Shown here: positions 3,656 to 18,045 of the stretch, piece by piece
Numbering within the stretch: position 1 is the stretch's first letter
Layout: each line of letters opens with the position of its first letter
IMG/VR virus record: IMGVR_UViG_3300021364_000126
Span: 1 to 28,484 of that record
DNA: 28,484 nt
Direction: 5' to 3' (one strand)
DNA from: a virus
Made by a program: the position numbers and the translations under genes
The notes under the pieces: model-generated
What the model was told of the DNA's origin: nothing
The model's input: the letters and a program-made list of their open reading frames with translations, nothing else
Databases searched by the model: none

Positions 3656-5555
3656 TCTCTTTTCCTTGGATTTGTTTCTCTTTAATTAAGCGATCAGCAA
3701 CCTGCATACGACGCTCAAACTCTTTGTCGTCTTGGTCGCCTTCACGCAAGTTTCGTGTAACAGCGTTAATTCTGTCAATCTCAAGCTCTTGCGGTACAAC
3801 TGCCGCTTCAGCCGCAAGCTTTTGCGCTCTGGCTGAAGACTCTTGTGCCTGTGCAGACAGGGCCGCAGTTTGTGATTGCTGGAACTGCAATTGTGCTTGT
3901 TGAGCCGCCATTTGCATTTGCTGTGCTTCAGGGTTGGGTTGCATAGCTTGAGCCATTGCCGCCAATAGTTCCTCACGATTAGACAGGTTCATGTTGTCTA
4001 CAACCGACTGGATTAAGGTTGTATAGAGTGGTGAGTCTTTGCCCATAGTCTGCAATAACTGTACCAACTGAGTAACTTCGTACTCCCTAGCAATAATCCC
4101 TAGCGTACTGCTCGCATTGAACTTGTAGTCCGCTACTGGGTAGTTTTCAGGATCAAACTGCATATACCGATGTGCGGCTTTCTTAACAAACGGAATCAGG
4201 AAAGATTGTTGGAAGTTAATAAGGGTGCGCTTATGACGCTTAATAAGAGCGCCAAGAGACATACTAATACCTGCCGCCGTTGACTCCCCATTAACTTGTC
4301 CAGCGATGCCAGCAGAATCAACTGCGCCGGTGGCTTGTTGAACCATCTGTTGTAACGCTCCGGCTTGCGCGAACGTAATCTGGCTAACCTGACCAAAGTT
4401 AAACGGTTGAAGTACTTCACGGGGATCTCCATTCGTAAGAATCATCTTGCCAGGACGGACTTCTGGCTTTGCACCTCGTGGCAATCGAGTTGCATCAAGC
4501 GCCATCATTGGGTGAATCGTTAAGCTCAGTGCATCAATACGCGCTCTAAGCTCTGTATCCAAAGCCTTTTGACTGTTATAGCCCTTTTCACAGACGCCTC
4601 TTCCCCAAAAACGTCCAGGCACTACATCCCACGGGAATGCTACGACAGGTCTATCGCCCATCATGTACGGATTGGCTTCCGCTTTTAAAAGTGTGCCACC
4701 GTTAGCAACAACAATAACGGCTTCTACGTACTTGCCTTCCTCTTCAACTTCCTCATCCATTGCTTCGTTAAGAAGCTCTCTAGGAACGAGGCCGTAGTAT
4801 TTAGTGAGTCGAACCTTGTCATCGTTGTAGATCGTAATGTCTTGATCGGGTTCGAGGTCAGTATCGGGAGCCGCAGATCCTACATAGGTATCACGGTATA
4901 CACCTTGCTCTTGAAGTAGCTCGACTTGATGCTTACTGACAAACTCATCAATGCAAACACCCATAGCCTCTTCAACGCTAGTGGCTACAGGGTCAATCAA
5001 GAAGTTCTGAGGTAGGACAGGGCGTAGCTTTACTTTGACGCGATCTTGGACGTTGACACCTACAGCTTGAAGATCCCCATCCATAATCGGTTGAGTGGCA
5101 GGTGCCATTTCTTTCATTTCTTCAATGACGATTTCACCAATGCCTGTACCGAATACGGCGGCATTGATAAGGCATTCCGCAACAGACTTGCGAATCATGC
5201 AATCTTCGAAGTCTTCGGTAAGTTTGTTTCTTAGGAAAAGAACGTCTTCCCTAGAGGTGTCGCCTAAATTATCGGAGACATCAAACCACTTTCCCCTACC
5301 GAATGTAGCTTCTTCCAGCTCTGCCACGTTGGATTCAACAGCTTGCTGTAAAGCAGGAGAAATAATACGGCTACGCTCACTCCGACGCTCGCTATCAGCA
5401 GGATCCCAAATCCCACGCCAAAGCCGATAGTATTCTTCAAAACGCGCTTCATAGTTAGATTCATAATAATCCCGCCAGTTTTCGCACTTTGTTATCACCC
5501 AATCCTCTACGGATTGTTCAGCCATCAAAGGATCCTGCTCGTATATCTCGTCCAT
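3543..5555 (-). CDS. Portal protein
   Basis: 670 residues, right for a podovirus portal (head-to-tail connector, twelve copies at one vertex). The N-terminus (YESNYEARFEEYYRLWRGIW and RSRIISPALQQAVESNVAE) and FGTGIGEIVIEE are typical portal text. A central segment RFWGRGVCEKGYNSQKALD matches the conserved portal core, followed by the clip and wing helices. Residues about 540-620 are Gln/Ala-rich coiled coil (MQMAAQQAQLQFQQSQ), like the barrel of P22-type portals. The C-terminal 40 residues are low complexity and overlap another frame. It lies one base downstream of the large terminase gene, as usual. Confidence 0.9.
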   Translation of the reverse strand: MDEIYEQDPLMAEQSVEDWVITKCENWRDYYESNYEARFEEYYRLWRGIWDPADSERRSERSRIISPALQQAVESNVAELEEATFGRGKWFDVSDNLGDTSREDVLFLRNKLTEDFEDCMIRKSVAECLINAAVFGTGIGEIVIEEMKEMAPATQPIMDGDLQAVGVNVQDRVKVKLRPVLPQNFLIDPVATSVEEAMGVCIDEFVSKHQVELLQEQGVYRDTYVGSAAPDTDLEPDQDITIYNDDKVRLTKYYGLVPRELLNEAMDEEVEEEGKYVEAVIVVANGGTLLKAEANPYMMGDRPVVAFPWDVVPGRFWGRGVCEKGYNSQKALDTELRARIDALSLTIHPMMALDATRLPRGAKPEVRPGKMILTNGDPREVLQPFNFGQVSQITFAQAGALQQMVQQATGAVDSAGIAGQVNGESTAAGISMSLGALIKRHKRTLINFQQSFLIPFVKKAAHRYMQFDPENYPVADYKFNASSTLGIIAREYEVTQLVQLLQTMGKDSPLYTTLIQSVVDNMNLSNREELLAAMAQAMQPNPEAQQMQMAAQQAQLQFQQSQTAALSAQAQESSARAQKLAAEAAVVPQELEIDRINAVTRNLREGDQDDKEFERRMQVADRLIKEKQIQGKENANRQRIPNDTEQAQRPSGAAPTPSPRTPVQGGGFNQ

Positions 5556-13896: not shown

Positions 13897-14502
13897 TTAC
13901 TCTCCCATTACTTTTCTTGCGGCATTGAACTCATCGGATTTGAGCGCGGCACGTTCAGCCGTAGTAAATGCCCCGCCCTTTGAGGGAGCCAGCCACAAGG
14001 CTTGCTTGTCCTCGGTTGAAATCTCACCCCATGCTTCAGCTACGTTCTCCCACTTAGGCTCATCCATGTTGATGTATTCCTTGATGAAGTAGATAGAGGC
14101 TGAGTTGTTACGCCATGCTTCATTGTGAGCTATCAGCTTTTCCATTTCTTCATTGGAACCCTGGCTATTCTGTTGGCTAATAGCGTTGGCTACCTCATCC
14201 GCTGAAGCTATCTCAGAACCACCCAGCCCGAAGAACGCTAAGGCTCTTCCTACTGCGCTGGTCTCTGCATTCTCTAACGCTGAAGTACGGTTGATCTTGC
14301 TGGCTGTCCTAACCTCTTCGGCATAGCCTGTAGCAATTACCTGAGGCCCCATAGATATCGTTGCTTTCATAACAACCAAGGTATCGTTAGCCTCAACCAG
14401 CTCTGTCTGAATAGTGAAGTCGGGATGCTTCTCCCTGAACTCCTGAATACGCAAGGCTACGGTCTTGTATTCCTTGCCATGAATCTTAACGGTTCCTGTC
14501 AT
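13897..14502 (-). CDS. Single-strand annealing recombinase (Erf/Rad52-like)
   Basis: 201 residues. The conserved block KINRTSALENAETSAVGRAL followed by AFFGLGGSEIASADEV (about 88-124) is the signature of phage Erf/Sak-type annealing proteins; the N-terminus (KEYKTVALRIQEFREKHPDF) is the typical strand-helix start. These proteins form rings on ssDNA and anneal homologous strands during phage recombination and replication. The C-terminal 70 residues are variable helical, ending AARKVMGE. It leads a minus-strand operon with its SSB-tip partner. AGGAGAGAG lies close before the ATG, and a palindromic operator overlaps its probable promoter. Confidence 0.8.
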   Translation of the reverse strand: MTGTVKIHGKEYKTVALRIQEFREKHPDFTIQTELVEANDTLVVMKATISMGPQVIATGYAEEVRTASKINRTSALENAETSAVGRALAFFGLGGSEIASADEVANAISQQNSQGSNEEMEKLIAHNEAWRNNSASIYFIKEYINMDEPKWENVAEAWGEISTEDKQALWLAPSKGGAFTTAERAALKSDEFNAARKVMGE

Positions 14503-14535
14503 CTCTCTCTCCTTTGTTGTGTTGAGATGTAATGG

Positions 14536-14564
14536 AGTGTACTAAAGTTGTATAAAGATGTAAA
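14536..14564 (-). promoter_or_regulatory. Promoter of the annealing-protein operon
   Basis: On the minus strand TTTACA (14559-14564), a 17-bp spacer, and TACACT (14536-14541). The first hexamer lies inside the palindrome at 14556-14569, so binding there would block the promoter. A perfect TTGACA for the plus strand lies at 14601-14606, but no good second hexamer was seen at the right distance. Confidence 0.4.
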
Positions 14565-14577
14565 CATCTGTAAACAT
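14556..14577. promoter_or_regulatory. Operator-like palindrome and direct repeats
   Basis: AGATGT-AA-ACATCT (14556-14569) is a perfect dyad. TGTAAACAT occurs twice (14559-14567 and 14569-14577), one helical turn apart, and AGATGTAA appears again at 14525-14532. This lies in the 161-bp gap between the divergent annealing-protein and helicase genes and overlaps the minus-strand promoter. Confidence 0.6.
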
Positions 14578-14663
14578 TTGCAACAGCAGTCAGATCATGT
14601 TTGACAGTTGGGCAAAACTAAGCCAAAGTTAAAGGCTTTCTGGGCCAAAAAAAGGAGACACCA

Positions 14664-15818
14664 ATGCAGGATGATTGGGCAATGTACTGCGAAGAACTAA
14701 ATAAAATTCAAGTAAACCCCACTCAAGTACCCACCCCGCACATAAACGGAGCAACGCACCAAAACGGAACGTCTACAGCATTATCAAAACTCATGTTCGC
14801 GGCAGTCAATGACCGCATCGAAGAGATGGAAGAGCGCCTTGCCAAAGAGCGAGACGTGATACCAGGCATGATTACGACCGGCACAGTCACCCTTGTGTAC
14901 GCACCTAGCGGCGCAGGTAAAACAGTATGGATACTGGGCAACCTCTTCCAGAGTATTCGGAATAACCTGATAAAAGGCTCCGACGTGATCTATTTCAACG
15001 AAGACGACGGTGCTAAGGGTGTACTCCAGAAGGCGAAGATGGGCAGGAAGCACGGGATGACCATGATCACCTTGGCTAACTCGCCAGATCCTTTGCTGAG
15101 AAACACCGAAGATGCGTTACGCCTACTCAGTGCGATACGCGAAGAGGGTCATGCCGATGGCAAGATCGTCATCTGTGACACCCTCAAGAAGTTCGCGCCA
15201 GTGCTGAACAAGGGCGATATGCGGGACGTGCTACACGTCTTCCGTGAGTTCGCGGCGGCAGGTGGTACGGTCATCTTGTTGGGCCACTGCAACAAGCACC
15301 GAAGCATGGACGGTCGCTTGATCTACGAAGGCGTAGGGGATCTGAAGTCAGACGTTGACAATATGTTTGGCCTTGACCCAGTGAACGATAAGTTCGCCGC
15401 CTATCAAGAACTTTTAGTAATCAATGAAAAGGATCGGAGCCAGATTAGCTTCGAGGGTGGATTTAAGTACAAGCAAACTAGCGCAGTTGTTCACTACGAA
15501 GAGTCAGTGGATTCTGTGCAGTTTATGAGTACCGATGACATCAGCGAACTAAAGGAAAAGCAGAGAGCGCAAATCAACATCGGCAAGGCCCTATCCAAGT
15601 ACGAAGATGAGTACATCCTGCTGAGTAGTGTGATGAAAGAAGGCAAGCTATGGGCGCAGTCAGAGTTGTTTGATCTGTTAAGTGACCATGAGGTGAATCC
15701 TAACGGCTGTACAAAGAAGATGCTTCGTAACTGCATCGACCTGCTGAAGGGAAACAACCTAACACTGGAGCGCAGAGGGGCGCACGGTAAGAAGTTTTAT
15801 AGATGGAACCCAATGTAA
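14664..15818 (+). CDS. RecA-fold replicative helicase-like ATPase (RepA/AAA_25 type)
   Basis: 384 residues. Walker A YAPSGAGKTVW (79-89), a following acidic strand VIYFNEDDGAKG, Walker B KIVICDTLKKF with D172, and ILLGHCNKH (204-212) as the third conserved strand, then GVGDLKSDVDNMF. This is the order of RepA-like hexameric helicases and AAA_25 ATPases of phages and plasmids. Residues 305-384 form a separate winged-helix-like tail (AQSELFDLLSDHEVNPNG, GCTKKMLRNC). It probably opens the phage origin or loads the fork; no primase or polymerase gene is present in the window, so host enzymes would do the synthesis. AGGAG precedes the ATG. Confidence 0.85.
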   Translation: MQDDWAMYCEELNKIQVNPTQVPTPHINGATHQNGTSTALSKLMFAAVNDRIEEMEERLAKERDVIPGMITTGTVTLVYAPSGAGKTVWILGNLFQSIRNNLIKGSDVIYFNEDDGAKGVLQKAKMGRKHGMTMITLANSPDPLLRNTEDALRLLSAIREEGHADGKIVICDTLKKFAPVLNKGDMRDVLHVFREFAAAGGTVILLGHCNKHRSMDGRLIYEGVGDLKSDVDNMFGLDPVNDKFAAYQELLVINEKDRSQISFEGGFKYKQTSAVVHYEESVDSVQFMSTDDISELKEKQRAQINIGKALSKYEDEYILLSSVMKEGKLWAQSELFDLLSDHEVNPNGCTKKMLRNCIDLLKGNNLTLERRGAHGKKFYRWNPM

Positions 15819-15828
15819 GGAGAGAAGT

Positions 15829-16071
15829 ATGAAGCGTAACGATGAAATTTTATTAGCGTATAGAAAAGAGAGAGAAAGGTTTTACCTAAAGGCGGTTGAT
15901 GTTTTGCTTAAAGCAAAGCCATCAATGCCTCTTGATGACATTTATCTCGAAGCTAAAACTGAAGCTAAATGTATGTGGCTTACTTTTGCTGAGAGCTTAG
16001 AGGAATCGCAGGAAGAGTTTGAGCAATCGAGATGGTATGCAGGTTATTTTTATGAGGATGAAGATGAATAG
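15829..16071 (+). CDS. Small acidic helical protein (80 residues)
   Basis: Starts MKRNDEILLAYRKERERFYL and ends in a Tyr/Glu/Asp-rich tail (GYFYEDEDE). Helical throughout, with repeated charged pairs; no family recognised. GGAGAG lies before the ATG, and it is 10 bp past the helicase gene. Its base composition is AT-richer than the helicase. Its last bases overlap the start of the next short frame. Confidence 0.65.
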   Translation: MKRNDEILLAYRKERERFYLKAVDVLLKAKPSMPLDDIYLEAKTEAKCMWLTFAESLEESQEEFEQSRWYAGYFYEDEDE

Positions 16072-16207
16072 AATGCCCAGAATGCCCCGCCAGCCCCTAA
16101 AGCCCTTGTTTAACCCCCCACCTCTAGCGGGATTACCACCTAACCCGCCCCCTAAAACTAAGGCATTGGGGGATTTCTGGGCAAACTGGGCAAACTGGGC
16201 AAACTGA
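16064..16207 (+). CDS. Pro-rich short frame ending in WAN repeats
   Basis: The frame from ATG 16064 (GAGG with 6-nt spacing) gives 47 residues: MNRMPRMPRQPLKPLFNPPP, a Pro-rich centre (AGLPPNPPPK), and the end FWANWANWAN. The ends are simply translations of tandem 9-bp DNA repeats (AGAATGCCC at the left, GGGCAAACT at the right). A DNA element whose repeats happen to keep a frame open seems as likely as a protein. The overlap with the previous gene is 8 bp. I give it low confidence as a coding sequence. Confidence 0.3.
   Translation: MNRMPRMPRQPLKPLFNPPPLAGLPPNPPPKTKALGDFWANWANWAN
16070..16205. repeat. Element bounded by inverted sets of 9-bp tandem repeats
   Basis: AGAATGCCC occurs twice in tandem (16070-16087). 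GGGCAAACT occurs three times in tandem (16179-16205). Reverse-complemented, the right unit is AGTTTGCCC, 7 of 9 identical to the left, so the two sets face each other across about 90 bp. Between them lies a smaller inverted repeat GCGGG/CCCGC (16127-16131 and 16144-16148). Position downstream of the helicase gene fits iterons or binding sites for a replication protein. Confidence 0.75.
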
Positions 16208-16218
16208 ATGGAGATGAT

Positions 16219-16611
16219 ATGAAAACACGAATAGATCATTACCCAAAATTTGCGCGAATGGTTGGTGAAGCAAGGCCAAATACAAGCCACAAAAGCAAAC
16301 TGACGCGAGAGCAAATGCTTGCAAGGAGAAAGCTACATGACATTGCTTGTTACAAGTGCGGCAGAAAATGCAAGGTTCCTTTGGGAAAATTAAATGCAAT
16401 GCTTACAAACTATCAAAGCAAAGGAACAGACAATCAAGGCAACCACTTTTGTTGTTCAACGTGCATAAAGTCTGGACTGTCTGAAGTCAGAGAAGCAACG
16501 ATCAACACGGCGGATTCCAGAAAGCTCAAAGAGGCAATCAAATTACTTAAAAAATCTAAAAAATTTAAAGCCGCTGAACTGCTAGAAAAAAAACTAGAGG
16601 AAAAGACCTGA
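16219..16611 (+). CDS. Zinc-finger protein with Lys-rich helical tail (130 residues)
   Basis: Cysteines and histidine are placed as CYKCGRKC (C44, C47, C51) and HFCCSTC (H76, C78, C79, C82), a treble-clef or zinc-ribbon-like site. The tail from about 100 is a basic helix pair (KLKEAIKLLKKSKKFKAAEL). No catalytic HNH signature is visible (no H-N-H spacing), so a DNA-binding or adaptor role is more likely. GGAGATG lies before the ATG. It overlaps the next gene by one base (TGATG). Confidence 0.65.
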   Translation: MKTRIDHYPKFARMVGEARPNTSHKSKLTREQMLARRKLHDIACYKCGRKCKVPLGKLNAMLTNYQSKGTDNQGNHFCCSTCIKSGLSEVREATINTADSRKLKEAIKLLKKSKKFKAAELLEKKLEEKT

Positions 16612-17036: not shown

Positions 17037-17299
17037 ATAAGAATTTTTATAAGCACGTTTTTTATGCGGAATGCCCAGACAATGGAGTTCCAATTCGCTA
17101 CCTGTTAACGATTGAATCTTATCGAATGATTAACGTATTCGATATTCAAACCAGAACCGAAAGCATGACCTCTGGATACCAAGAAGATTTGGCCGATGCT
17201 TTGTTTCAAAGCTTTGGCGAGAAGCAAATGCTGGAAGCTTACCATCACGGCTTTTTTATAAGGACAGTAAGAAGCGAACAGGATGAGGATCTATCATGA
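17033..17299 (+). CDS. Hypothetical protein, 88 residues, GTG start
   Basis: The frame opens with GTG overlapping the upstream TGA (GTGA). Product is NKNFYKHVFYAECPDNGVPI, a strand pair (LLTIESYRMINVFDIQTR) and an acidic helical end (EAYHHGFFIRTVRSEQDEDL). Small alpha/beta protein, unknown family. It is coupled to the TGT/DpdA-like gene by ATGA overlap, so it may be an accessory to it. Confidence 0.6.
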   Translation: MNKNFYKHVFYAECPDNGVPIRYLLTIESYRMINVFDIQTRTESMTSGYQEDLADALFQSFGEKQMLEAYHHGFFIRTVRSEQDEDLS

Positions 17300-18045
17300 T
17301 TCACTATCATGGAGGCCCCATAACGCCAGACACCTGCGCGATCAGAGCATGGAAGAGTAGACACGCATTCGTTAGCTTTGCCAGGCCAGATCAGCTCGGT
17401 CTTGCGACAGAGATTTGTCAGTCTTTTGGCTTAGACAACGGAGCTTTTACTTTCTGGAAAACAGGGGAGCCTATCGACTGGTCTGGATATTATGAGTTTA
17501 TTGATCGCTGGAAAAATCATCCTCGCTTTGACTTTGCAATCATACCCGACGTAATTGATGGAGGCTCTCGGGCAAACGATGAGTTGCTGGCGGCATGGCC
17601 TCACGGCAACTATGTTGGTGTTCCTGTTTGGCATATGAATGAGCCAGAGGATCGGTTTATAAGGCTATGCAATACGTACCCTAGAGTCGCCATTGGATCG
17701 TGCGGCGAATACGATGTACGCAATCCTGGCAAATGCGTCAGCAGAATGAGAGACGTTATACGCCACGTTGTTGACGATAACGGACAGCCAATAGCAAAGC
17801 TTCACGGCCTTAGAATGCTTAACAAGTCCGTGTTTAAGTACCTTCCTTTGTCGAGCGCAGACTCCACAAACGTAGCAAGAAACATAGGGATAGACAGCAA
17901 ATGGGCTGGATCGTATAGCCCAAAATCAAAAGAGACCAGAGCAAGCATTCTGGTGGAAAGAATAGAGTCTATTAACTCAGCCAGCGCACTTCATTGGGAT
18001 GAGGAAAAAGACAGGGTAGACGTACAGCTATCGTTTGAAATATAG
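17296..18045 (+). CDS. dpdA: TGT-like base-exchange enzyme, DpdA type
   Basis: 249 residues with the (beta/alpha)8 order of tRNA-guanine transglycosylases. FGLDNGAF (D47) corresponds to the LTDSGGYQ active-site motif, IIPDVIDG (D85) to the base-recognition strand, KLHGLRML (168-175) to the later glycine motif, and LSSADSTNVARN (D189) to the nucleophile region with following ARN. The zinc-binding C-terminus of tRNA enzymes is not seen. Known DpdA proteins are phage or genomic-island relatives that put 7-deazaguanine (preQ0) into DNA; start HYHGGPITP and short length agree. No preQ0 synthesis genes are visible in the window, so substrate would come from the host or from genes outside. Motif assignment is by eye. 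Confidence 0.72.
   Translation: MIHYHGGPITPDTCAIRAWKSRHAFVSFARPDQLGLATEICQSFGLDNGAFTFWKTGEPIDWSGYYEFIDRWKNHPRFDFAIIPDVIDGGSRANDELLAAWPHGNYVGVPVWHMNEPEDRFIRLCNTYPRVAIGSCGEYDVRNPGKCVSRMRDVIRHVVDDNGQPIAKLHGLRMLNKSVFKYLPLSSADSTNVARNIGIDSKWAGSYSPKSKETRASILVERIESINSASALHWDEEKDRVDVQLSFEI

Follow-up and report, generated by a model that had tools for sequence, protein, structure and literature searches.

Genes and repeats at the helicase locus

The window analysed here, by which we mean the whole stretch of DNA under study, comprises 28,484 bases of an incomplete IMG/VR virus record. It encodes a major head protein, a portal and a large terminase, the last of which lies 9 kb from the repeat arrays described below. 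The gene at 14664–15818 (+ strand) encodes a helicase of 384 amino acids, in which Pfam, PHROG and structural models place a RecA-fold ATPase core (AAA_25) ahead of a predicted C-terminal winged helix. The protein matches Pfam AAA_25 with E = 1.8e-9 and PHROG 6357; AAA_25 is its only match in Pfam, nothing close was found in NCBIfam and no solved relative was found by sequence. Compared by Foldseek, an AlphaFold2 model of the ATPase core resembles the folds of RecA, Rad51, KaiC and T7 gp4. The C-terminal domain (residues 311–384, codons at 15594–15815, + strand) was modelled with a mean pLDDT of 89 and an H-H-E-H-H-E-E pattern, and its Foldseek matches are mainly winged-helix proteins, none of them below E = 0.001; this high-confidence model predicts a winged helix, which we propose as the reader of the repeats. 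Arg355, encoded by the CGT codon at 15726–15728 (+ strand), lies in the predicted recognition helix (residues 351–361). The 384-residue protein has only AAA_25 and the winged helix, and no primase domain was found in it.

Divergent from the helicase gene, the gene at 13897–14502 (− strand) matches a PHROG family without an assigned function and by eye resembles the ERF-type single-strand annealing proteins. The interval between the two genes (14503–14663) carries TGTAAACAT-like repeats, including a 10 bp tandem at 14559–14577, which recur in close relatives and are probably the operators of an early regulator. No iterons were found upstream of the helicase gene, where a promoter and these operator-like repeats lie instead. 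Downstream of the helicase, PHROG identifies NinB-like, NinG-like and queuine-enzyme-like genes; the last of these (17296–18045), inside the replication/nin region, matches a family annotated as queuine tRNA-ribosyltransferase with E = 6.5e-88. Pfam, PHROG and NCBIfam recognised no other replication initiator, primase or polymerase in the early region; several open reading frames (ORFs) there have no match, and such genes could conceal another initiator.

Two small ORFs, at 15829–16071 and 16219–16611, flank the arrays in the window, and many relatives have other genes or none in these places. The first, an 80-residue ORF on the + strand between the helicase gene and the arrays, has no Pfam or PHROG match and is missing in most relatives. 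Cargo genes are thus gained and lost on either side of the array element.

The element itself occupies positions 16070–16205. Read directly, two exact units of AGAATGCCC (16070–16087, + strand) face three exact units of GGGCAAACT (16179–16205, − strand); the reverse complement of the latter, AGTTTGCCC, and the left unit disagree at 2 of their 9 bases. Exactly this arrangement had been described in an earlier, sequence-only reading of the same DNA. The window holds four exact 9-mer tandems, compared with a mean of 0.085 in 400 dinucleotide shuffles of the window, and none of the 400 shuffles contained two tandems 150 bp or less apart. The earlier reading also placed a 90 bp core between the arrays; within this stretch, degenerate units extend both arrays inward in the 9 bp register. 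These are CGCCAGCCC and CTAAAGCCC on the left (16088–16105, + strand) and, as reverse complements, AGAAATCCC and CCAATGCCT on the right (16161–16178, − strand), and better-preserved units occupy these positions in relatives. The arrays accordingly number about four and five units, and the core that they enclose (16106–16160), about 55 bp long, contains C/G tracts including CCCGCCCCCTAAAA at 16144–16157. Likewise, the element had been placed just after the helicase-like gene, and it is indeed nearby, but in the window the 80-residue ORF intervenes. A coding role for the open WAN frame that runs through the repeats was rejected, as array lengths and positions vary freely among relatives; the frame is a by-product of the 9 bp period.

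Conservation, covariation and exchange of the arrays

With the helicase protein as the query, 134 relatives were identified, of which the best 80 were fetched. Facing arrays of period 9 lie 3′ of the helicase gene in 80 of these best 80, sometimes with one gene in between. They were detected automatically in all but a few loci; four (L117, L118, L120 and L128) were read by eye and later parsed. The earlier reading had named absence of the repeats from relatives with conserved flanks as an argument against it; this was checked, and every fetched helicase-bearing relative carries the element. In most relatives the left array starts right at the helicase stop codon, and a gene-sized gap separates the two in 10 of 81 loci, the window included. 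Exact matches to a 21-base pattern taken from the right array were found in 45 IMG/VR stretches, 39 of which also have the left array; the helicase directly adjoins the arrays in all 39, and the remaining six are unrelated coincidences. In a second, more distant clade (36 loci with 23 distinct C-termini), TTTTAGGGGGCGGCCCCCAAAAA-like cores are flanked by three units on either side. Pattern counting recovered both arrays in 35 of its 36 loci, and the last one, L234, has a longer core by sequence. When nine genomes were scanned, each had one place only with arrays on both strands; two of the nine had one further weak two-site cluster on a single strand. Terminal repeats of 141 and 127 bp in two of the nine are consistent with complete records of 33–34 kb.

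No cultured relatives were found by DNA or protein, except for Campylobacter matches of 25% identity, and the contig sets suggest that the phages are probably marine. A scan of a genome collection with the exact pattern returned nine contigs, in which inspection by eye only revealed no facing left array upstream of the repeats. In L048 (Burkholderia), a seven-fold tandem of TGGGC[G/A]AAC occurs at about position 5442, with no facing array in the stretch read. The mention, in the earlier reading, of similar 9-mer runs near primase or helicase genes of other proteobacterial elements found no direct confirmation; the nearest documented parallels are the rep-ori systems of PICI/SaPI, PLE, P4 and pRN1. 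Two further observations concern the arrangement of the element. Contig 3300046167_000364 (58 kb; L030 and L036) carries two different helicase–array modules and is either a chimeric assembly or two joined phages. Relative to the helicase, the two arrays have changed places in L086, L097, L117, L118, L120 and L121, which have AGTTTGCCC to the left and GGGCATTCT to the right; L086 has an inverted core too, so that the element is inverted as a whole, as in its kin.

The type of repeat covaries with the C-terminal domain of the helicase. At base 6 of the unit, most loci have G, and 18 have C, A or T instead. Among 66 distinct proteins, residue 355 is Arg in the 53 with G at base 6 and Leu in the 13 with another base, with no exception; this pattern was first spotted by eye and counted afterwards. 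Residues 329, 336 and 355, all within the predicted winged helix, separate the two repeat classes perfectly in the same 66 proteins, and no column of the ATPase core does so. The second clade has Arg355 in 36 of 36 loci. Residue 348 (Gly versus Glu/Asp) was also considered as a further determinant of specificity, acting on GTTGGCCC units, and was rejected, as the NPNE proteins of the second clade have mixed units.

Pairwise alignments indicate how this covariation may have arisen. In the pairs L064/L060, L068/L069 and L088/L096, identity drops to about 40–85% over a segment that runs from the codons of the winged helix through the right array, whereas the flanks are mostly 88–100% identical. 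The exchange boundary lies close to the start of the winged-helix codons, which are inside the exchanged block. The pairs L063/L067 and L071/L075 exhibit the same pattern less cleanly, with an extra gene or with lower and noisier flank identity. The proposed reader domain and the arrays have thus been swapped as one block between otherwise near-identical phages. Owing to this block exchange, the tree of the ATPase core shows about nine changes of repeat type, at least six of them on well supported branches, whereas the tree of the C-terminal domain shows a single one. Six independent pairs could be compared on the ATPase-core tree, and residue 355 tracks the repeat type in all six (p = 0.031, which is the minimum possible for this number of pairs). 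However, the Leu355 domain arose once and was then passed on; the exchanges are therefore independent, but they are not independent tests of the residue rule. The rule relating residue to base rests on essentially one transition, to which residues 329 and 336 are equally linked. Physical adjacency alone could also carry domain and arrays together. Nevertheless, domain and repeat type also match in the 10 loci where a gene separates helicase and arrays, and they match over the Arg-type clades, which argues for a functional link between the two.

A putative origin and competing explanations

Conservation, a single site per genome, covariation of domain and repeat type, and co-exchange as one block all tie the arrays to the helicase. 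The iteron-type site suggested by the earlier reading is therefore strongly supported as a binding site of the protein encoded at 14664–15818, and plausibly as an origin. We consider it likely that the element is a replication origin, read through its 9 bp iterons by the phage's own self-loading RecA-fold helicase. The step from binding site to origin is suggested by the nature of the proposed reader, a RecA-fold helicase of the replicative class in an early region that yielded no further recognisable initiator, primase or polymerase, though several ORFs there have no match. Known cases point the same way: the iterons of SaPI/PICI lie 3′ of the initiator gene, and the origin of pRN1 is at the same place.

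On this basis, we infer the following sequence of events. The arrays would be iterons bound by the winged-helix domain of the helicase encoded upstream, so that helicase and arrays would form a self-contained replication module with the origin directly 3′ of the initiator-helicase gene. Using their C-terminal domains, helicase subunits would bind the 9 bp units in both arrays, presumably with residue 355 contacting a base, and would thereby be concentrated and assembled into rings in opposite orientations on either side of the core; two oppositely directed assemblies are suggested by the inverted arrangement of the arrays. The core would then melt, the two helicase rings would depart in opposite directions, and host primase and polymerase would be recruited to the opened core, so that the origin would fire bidirectionally.

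The composition of the core bears on how it might be opened. The elements have a median GC content of 0.56, and a G5 or C5 run is present in 64 of 65 distinct elements. No AT-rich unwinding element was found at elements of the window type, where the AT maximum nearby equals the background. The core of the second clade is a near-perfect dyad, TTTTAGGGGGCGGCCCCCAAAAA. In L153–L187, which belong to this clade, a conserved AT-rich stretch, TTGATTTCATTGACATTTTTATTT, directly follows the right array; it may be an unwinding element or, equally, a promoter. GC skew tracks gene direction and gives no location for an origin. Both the missing AT-rich element and this uninformative skew weaken the case for an origin. 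A more detailed proposal, which we advance tentatively and hold with somewhat less than even confidence, is that a RecA-fold (RepA/DnaB-like) helicase loads itself through its own winged helix on inverted arrays around a G/C-tract core that has no AT-rich unwinding element. Swaps of reader and address would have switched specificity many times, perhaps allowing escape from origin-directed competitors, and Arg or Leu at residue 355, on the recognition helix, would set G or not-G at one base of the unit.

An unlikely alternative is that the arrays do bind the helicase and yet constitute a regulatory or incompatibility site for copy control or autoregulation, in the manner of P4 crr, with the true origin elsewhere. 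All evidence of the binding type fits such a site equally well, and a core without an AT-rich unwinding element suits it. Phage P4 provides a precedent, as it has more than one iteron site. The nine genomes, however, have just one two-array site each, and the place upstream of the helicase gene is taken by a promoter and operator-like repeats rather than iterons. Moreover, in SaPI/PICI and pRN1 the location 3′ of the initiator gene is that of the origin (PMC6092414, PMC4234260).

It is less probable that pairing of the arrays in the helicase transcript forms an RNA element, such as an attenuator, a processing site or a structured leader. Predicted folding is strong, with z = −2.6 for the window and a median z of −5.3 over 65 elements, but facing arrays fold by construction. 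Elements of the non-G type avoid G at base 6 on both sides, but only about a third of the nested partners could pair at that base (11 of 40 by script, or 13 of 40 with the register of L069 corrected by hand). In L086 and its relatives the element is inverted as a whole, no Rfam match at the gathering score was found in the window, and no terminator was found at the arrays. In addition, a difference between AGAAT and AGTTT is kept between the two arrays in many relatives. The frequent lack of pairing at base 6, this conserved difference and the inversion in L086 favour a reader of duplex DNA over a helix.

A site of recombination or packaging (a hot spot or a pac site) or a mobile repeat is less probable still. 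The block is often exchanged, cargo genes vary on both sides of it and the NinB/NinG-like recombination genes lie downstream; every exchange, however, includes the winged-helix codons together with matching arrays, the terminase is 9 kb away, and an array away from a helicase was seen only in the six unrelated coincidences. The small mobile repeat that the earlier reading had entertained is likewise not supported: each scanned genome has a single two-array site, which stays beside the helicase even though it is exchanged along with the codons of the winged helix. Tandem repeats that arose by chance and serve no function have a negligible probability; other short 9 bp tandems do occur in the window, but the absence of a facing pair from all 400 shuffles and its conservation in all 80 fetched relatives already refute this explanation.

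Relation to known replication modules

The putative origin shares the general features of iteron-type origins, in that tandem units lie beside the gene of the candidate initiator and match it in type. It differs from the lambda O type, in which the iterons are inside the initiator gene, because the arrays here are 3′ of the gene. Its arrangement resembles the rep-ori of SaPI/PICI, where iterons on the 3′ side of the rep gene are read by the C-terminal domain of the Rep protein and two iteron sets flank a core, reportedly bound as two hexamers (PMC7581432, PMC6092414). The present element similarly has two sets of putative iterons around a core 3′ of the candidate initiator gene, with a small ORF between gene and arrays in the window. 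Nevertheless, there are clear differences. The SaPI and SCC helicases are of the DUF927 or Primase_Cterm/D5 type rather than RecA-fold AAA_25, PICI cores are AT-rich rather than marked by G/C tracts, and PICIs are satellites, whereas the carrier here has its own head and packaging genes. In its working, then, the element would resemble a rep-ori of the PICI type, a group from which it is set apart by the family of its helicase, the composition of its core and its carrier.

Other systems share single aspects. In the PLE satellites of Vibrio, RepA varies in its DNA-binding domain in step with the iterons of the origin; the two have been exchanged many times as a unit, and only cognate pairs replicate (PMC8263062, PMC7145576). 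Unlike the present helicase, the PLE initiator belongs to the RepA_N family, has an N-terminal reader and no helicase domain, and acts on three iterons of about 30 bp (PMC8263062, PMC7145576). In the alpha protein of phage P4 (ori/crr), as is proposed here, repeats at the origin are read by a winged helix at the C-terminus of a helicase, but the protein has a Toprim-type primase too and a different type of helicase (cited in PMC4234260). ORF904 of pRN1 ends in a winged helix, and the origin, with an inverted-repeat structure, lies directly downstream of the replication gene; it differs in having an SF3 helicase with a prim-pol, no iterons and a required stem-loop (PMC4234260). The RepA-type helicases of RSF1010 and GP46 of phage sk1 belong to the same broad class of RecA-fold hexameric helicases, for which AAA_25 has been named as a related family without known function (PMC8965321). 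In RSF1010, unlike in our proposal, a separate protein, RepC, reads the iterons, and GP46 has no described origin-reading domain (PMC8965321). A replicon of the RSF1010 type would also have a separate primase; neither this nor a separate iteron-binding initiator was recognised in the early region, where several ORFs have no match. Searches of the open-access literature yielded no description of this array arrangement with an AAA_25 helicase.

The origins of uncultured phages are rarely located. Here, sequence alone has pointed to where replication probably starts and to the probable reader, and it has supplied a candidate residue for specificity along with a set of natural swaps. A plan similar to that of SaPI/PICI, built with an unrelated helicase and carried by a phage, would suggest convergence. 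No free-standing copies of the winged helix, as an origin-directed nuclease might have, were found in the fetched loci, where only truncations at contig edges occur. The repeated swapping of reader and arrays resembles the PLE case, for which an origin-directed nuclease has been proposed as the driver (PMC8263062).
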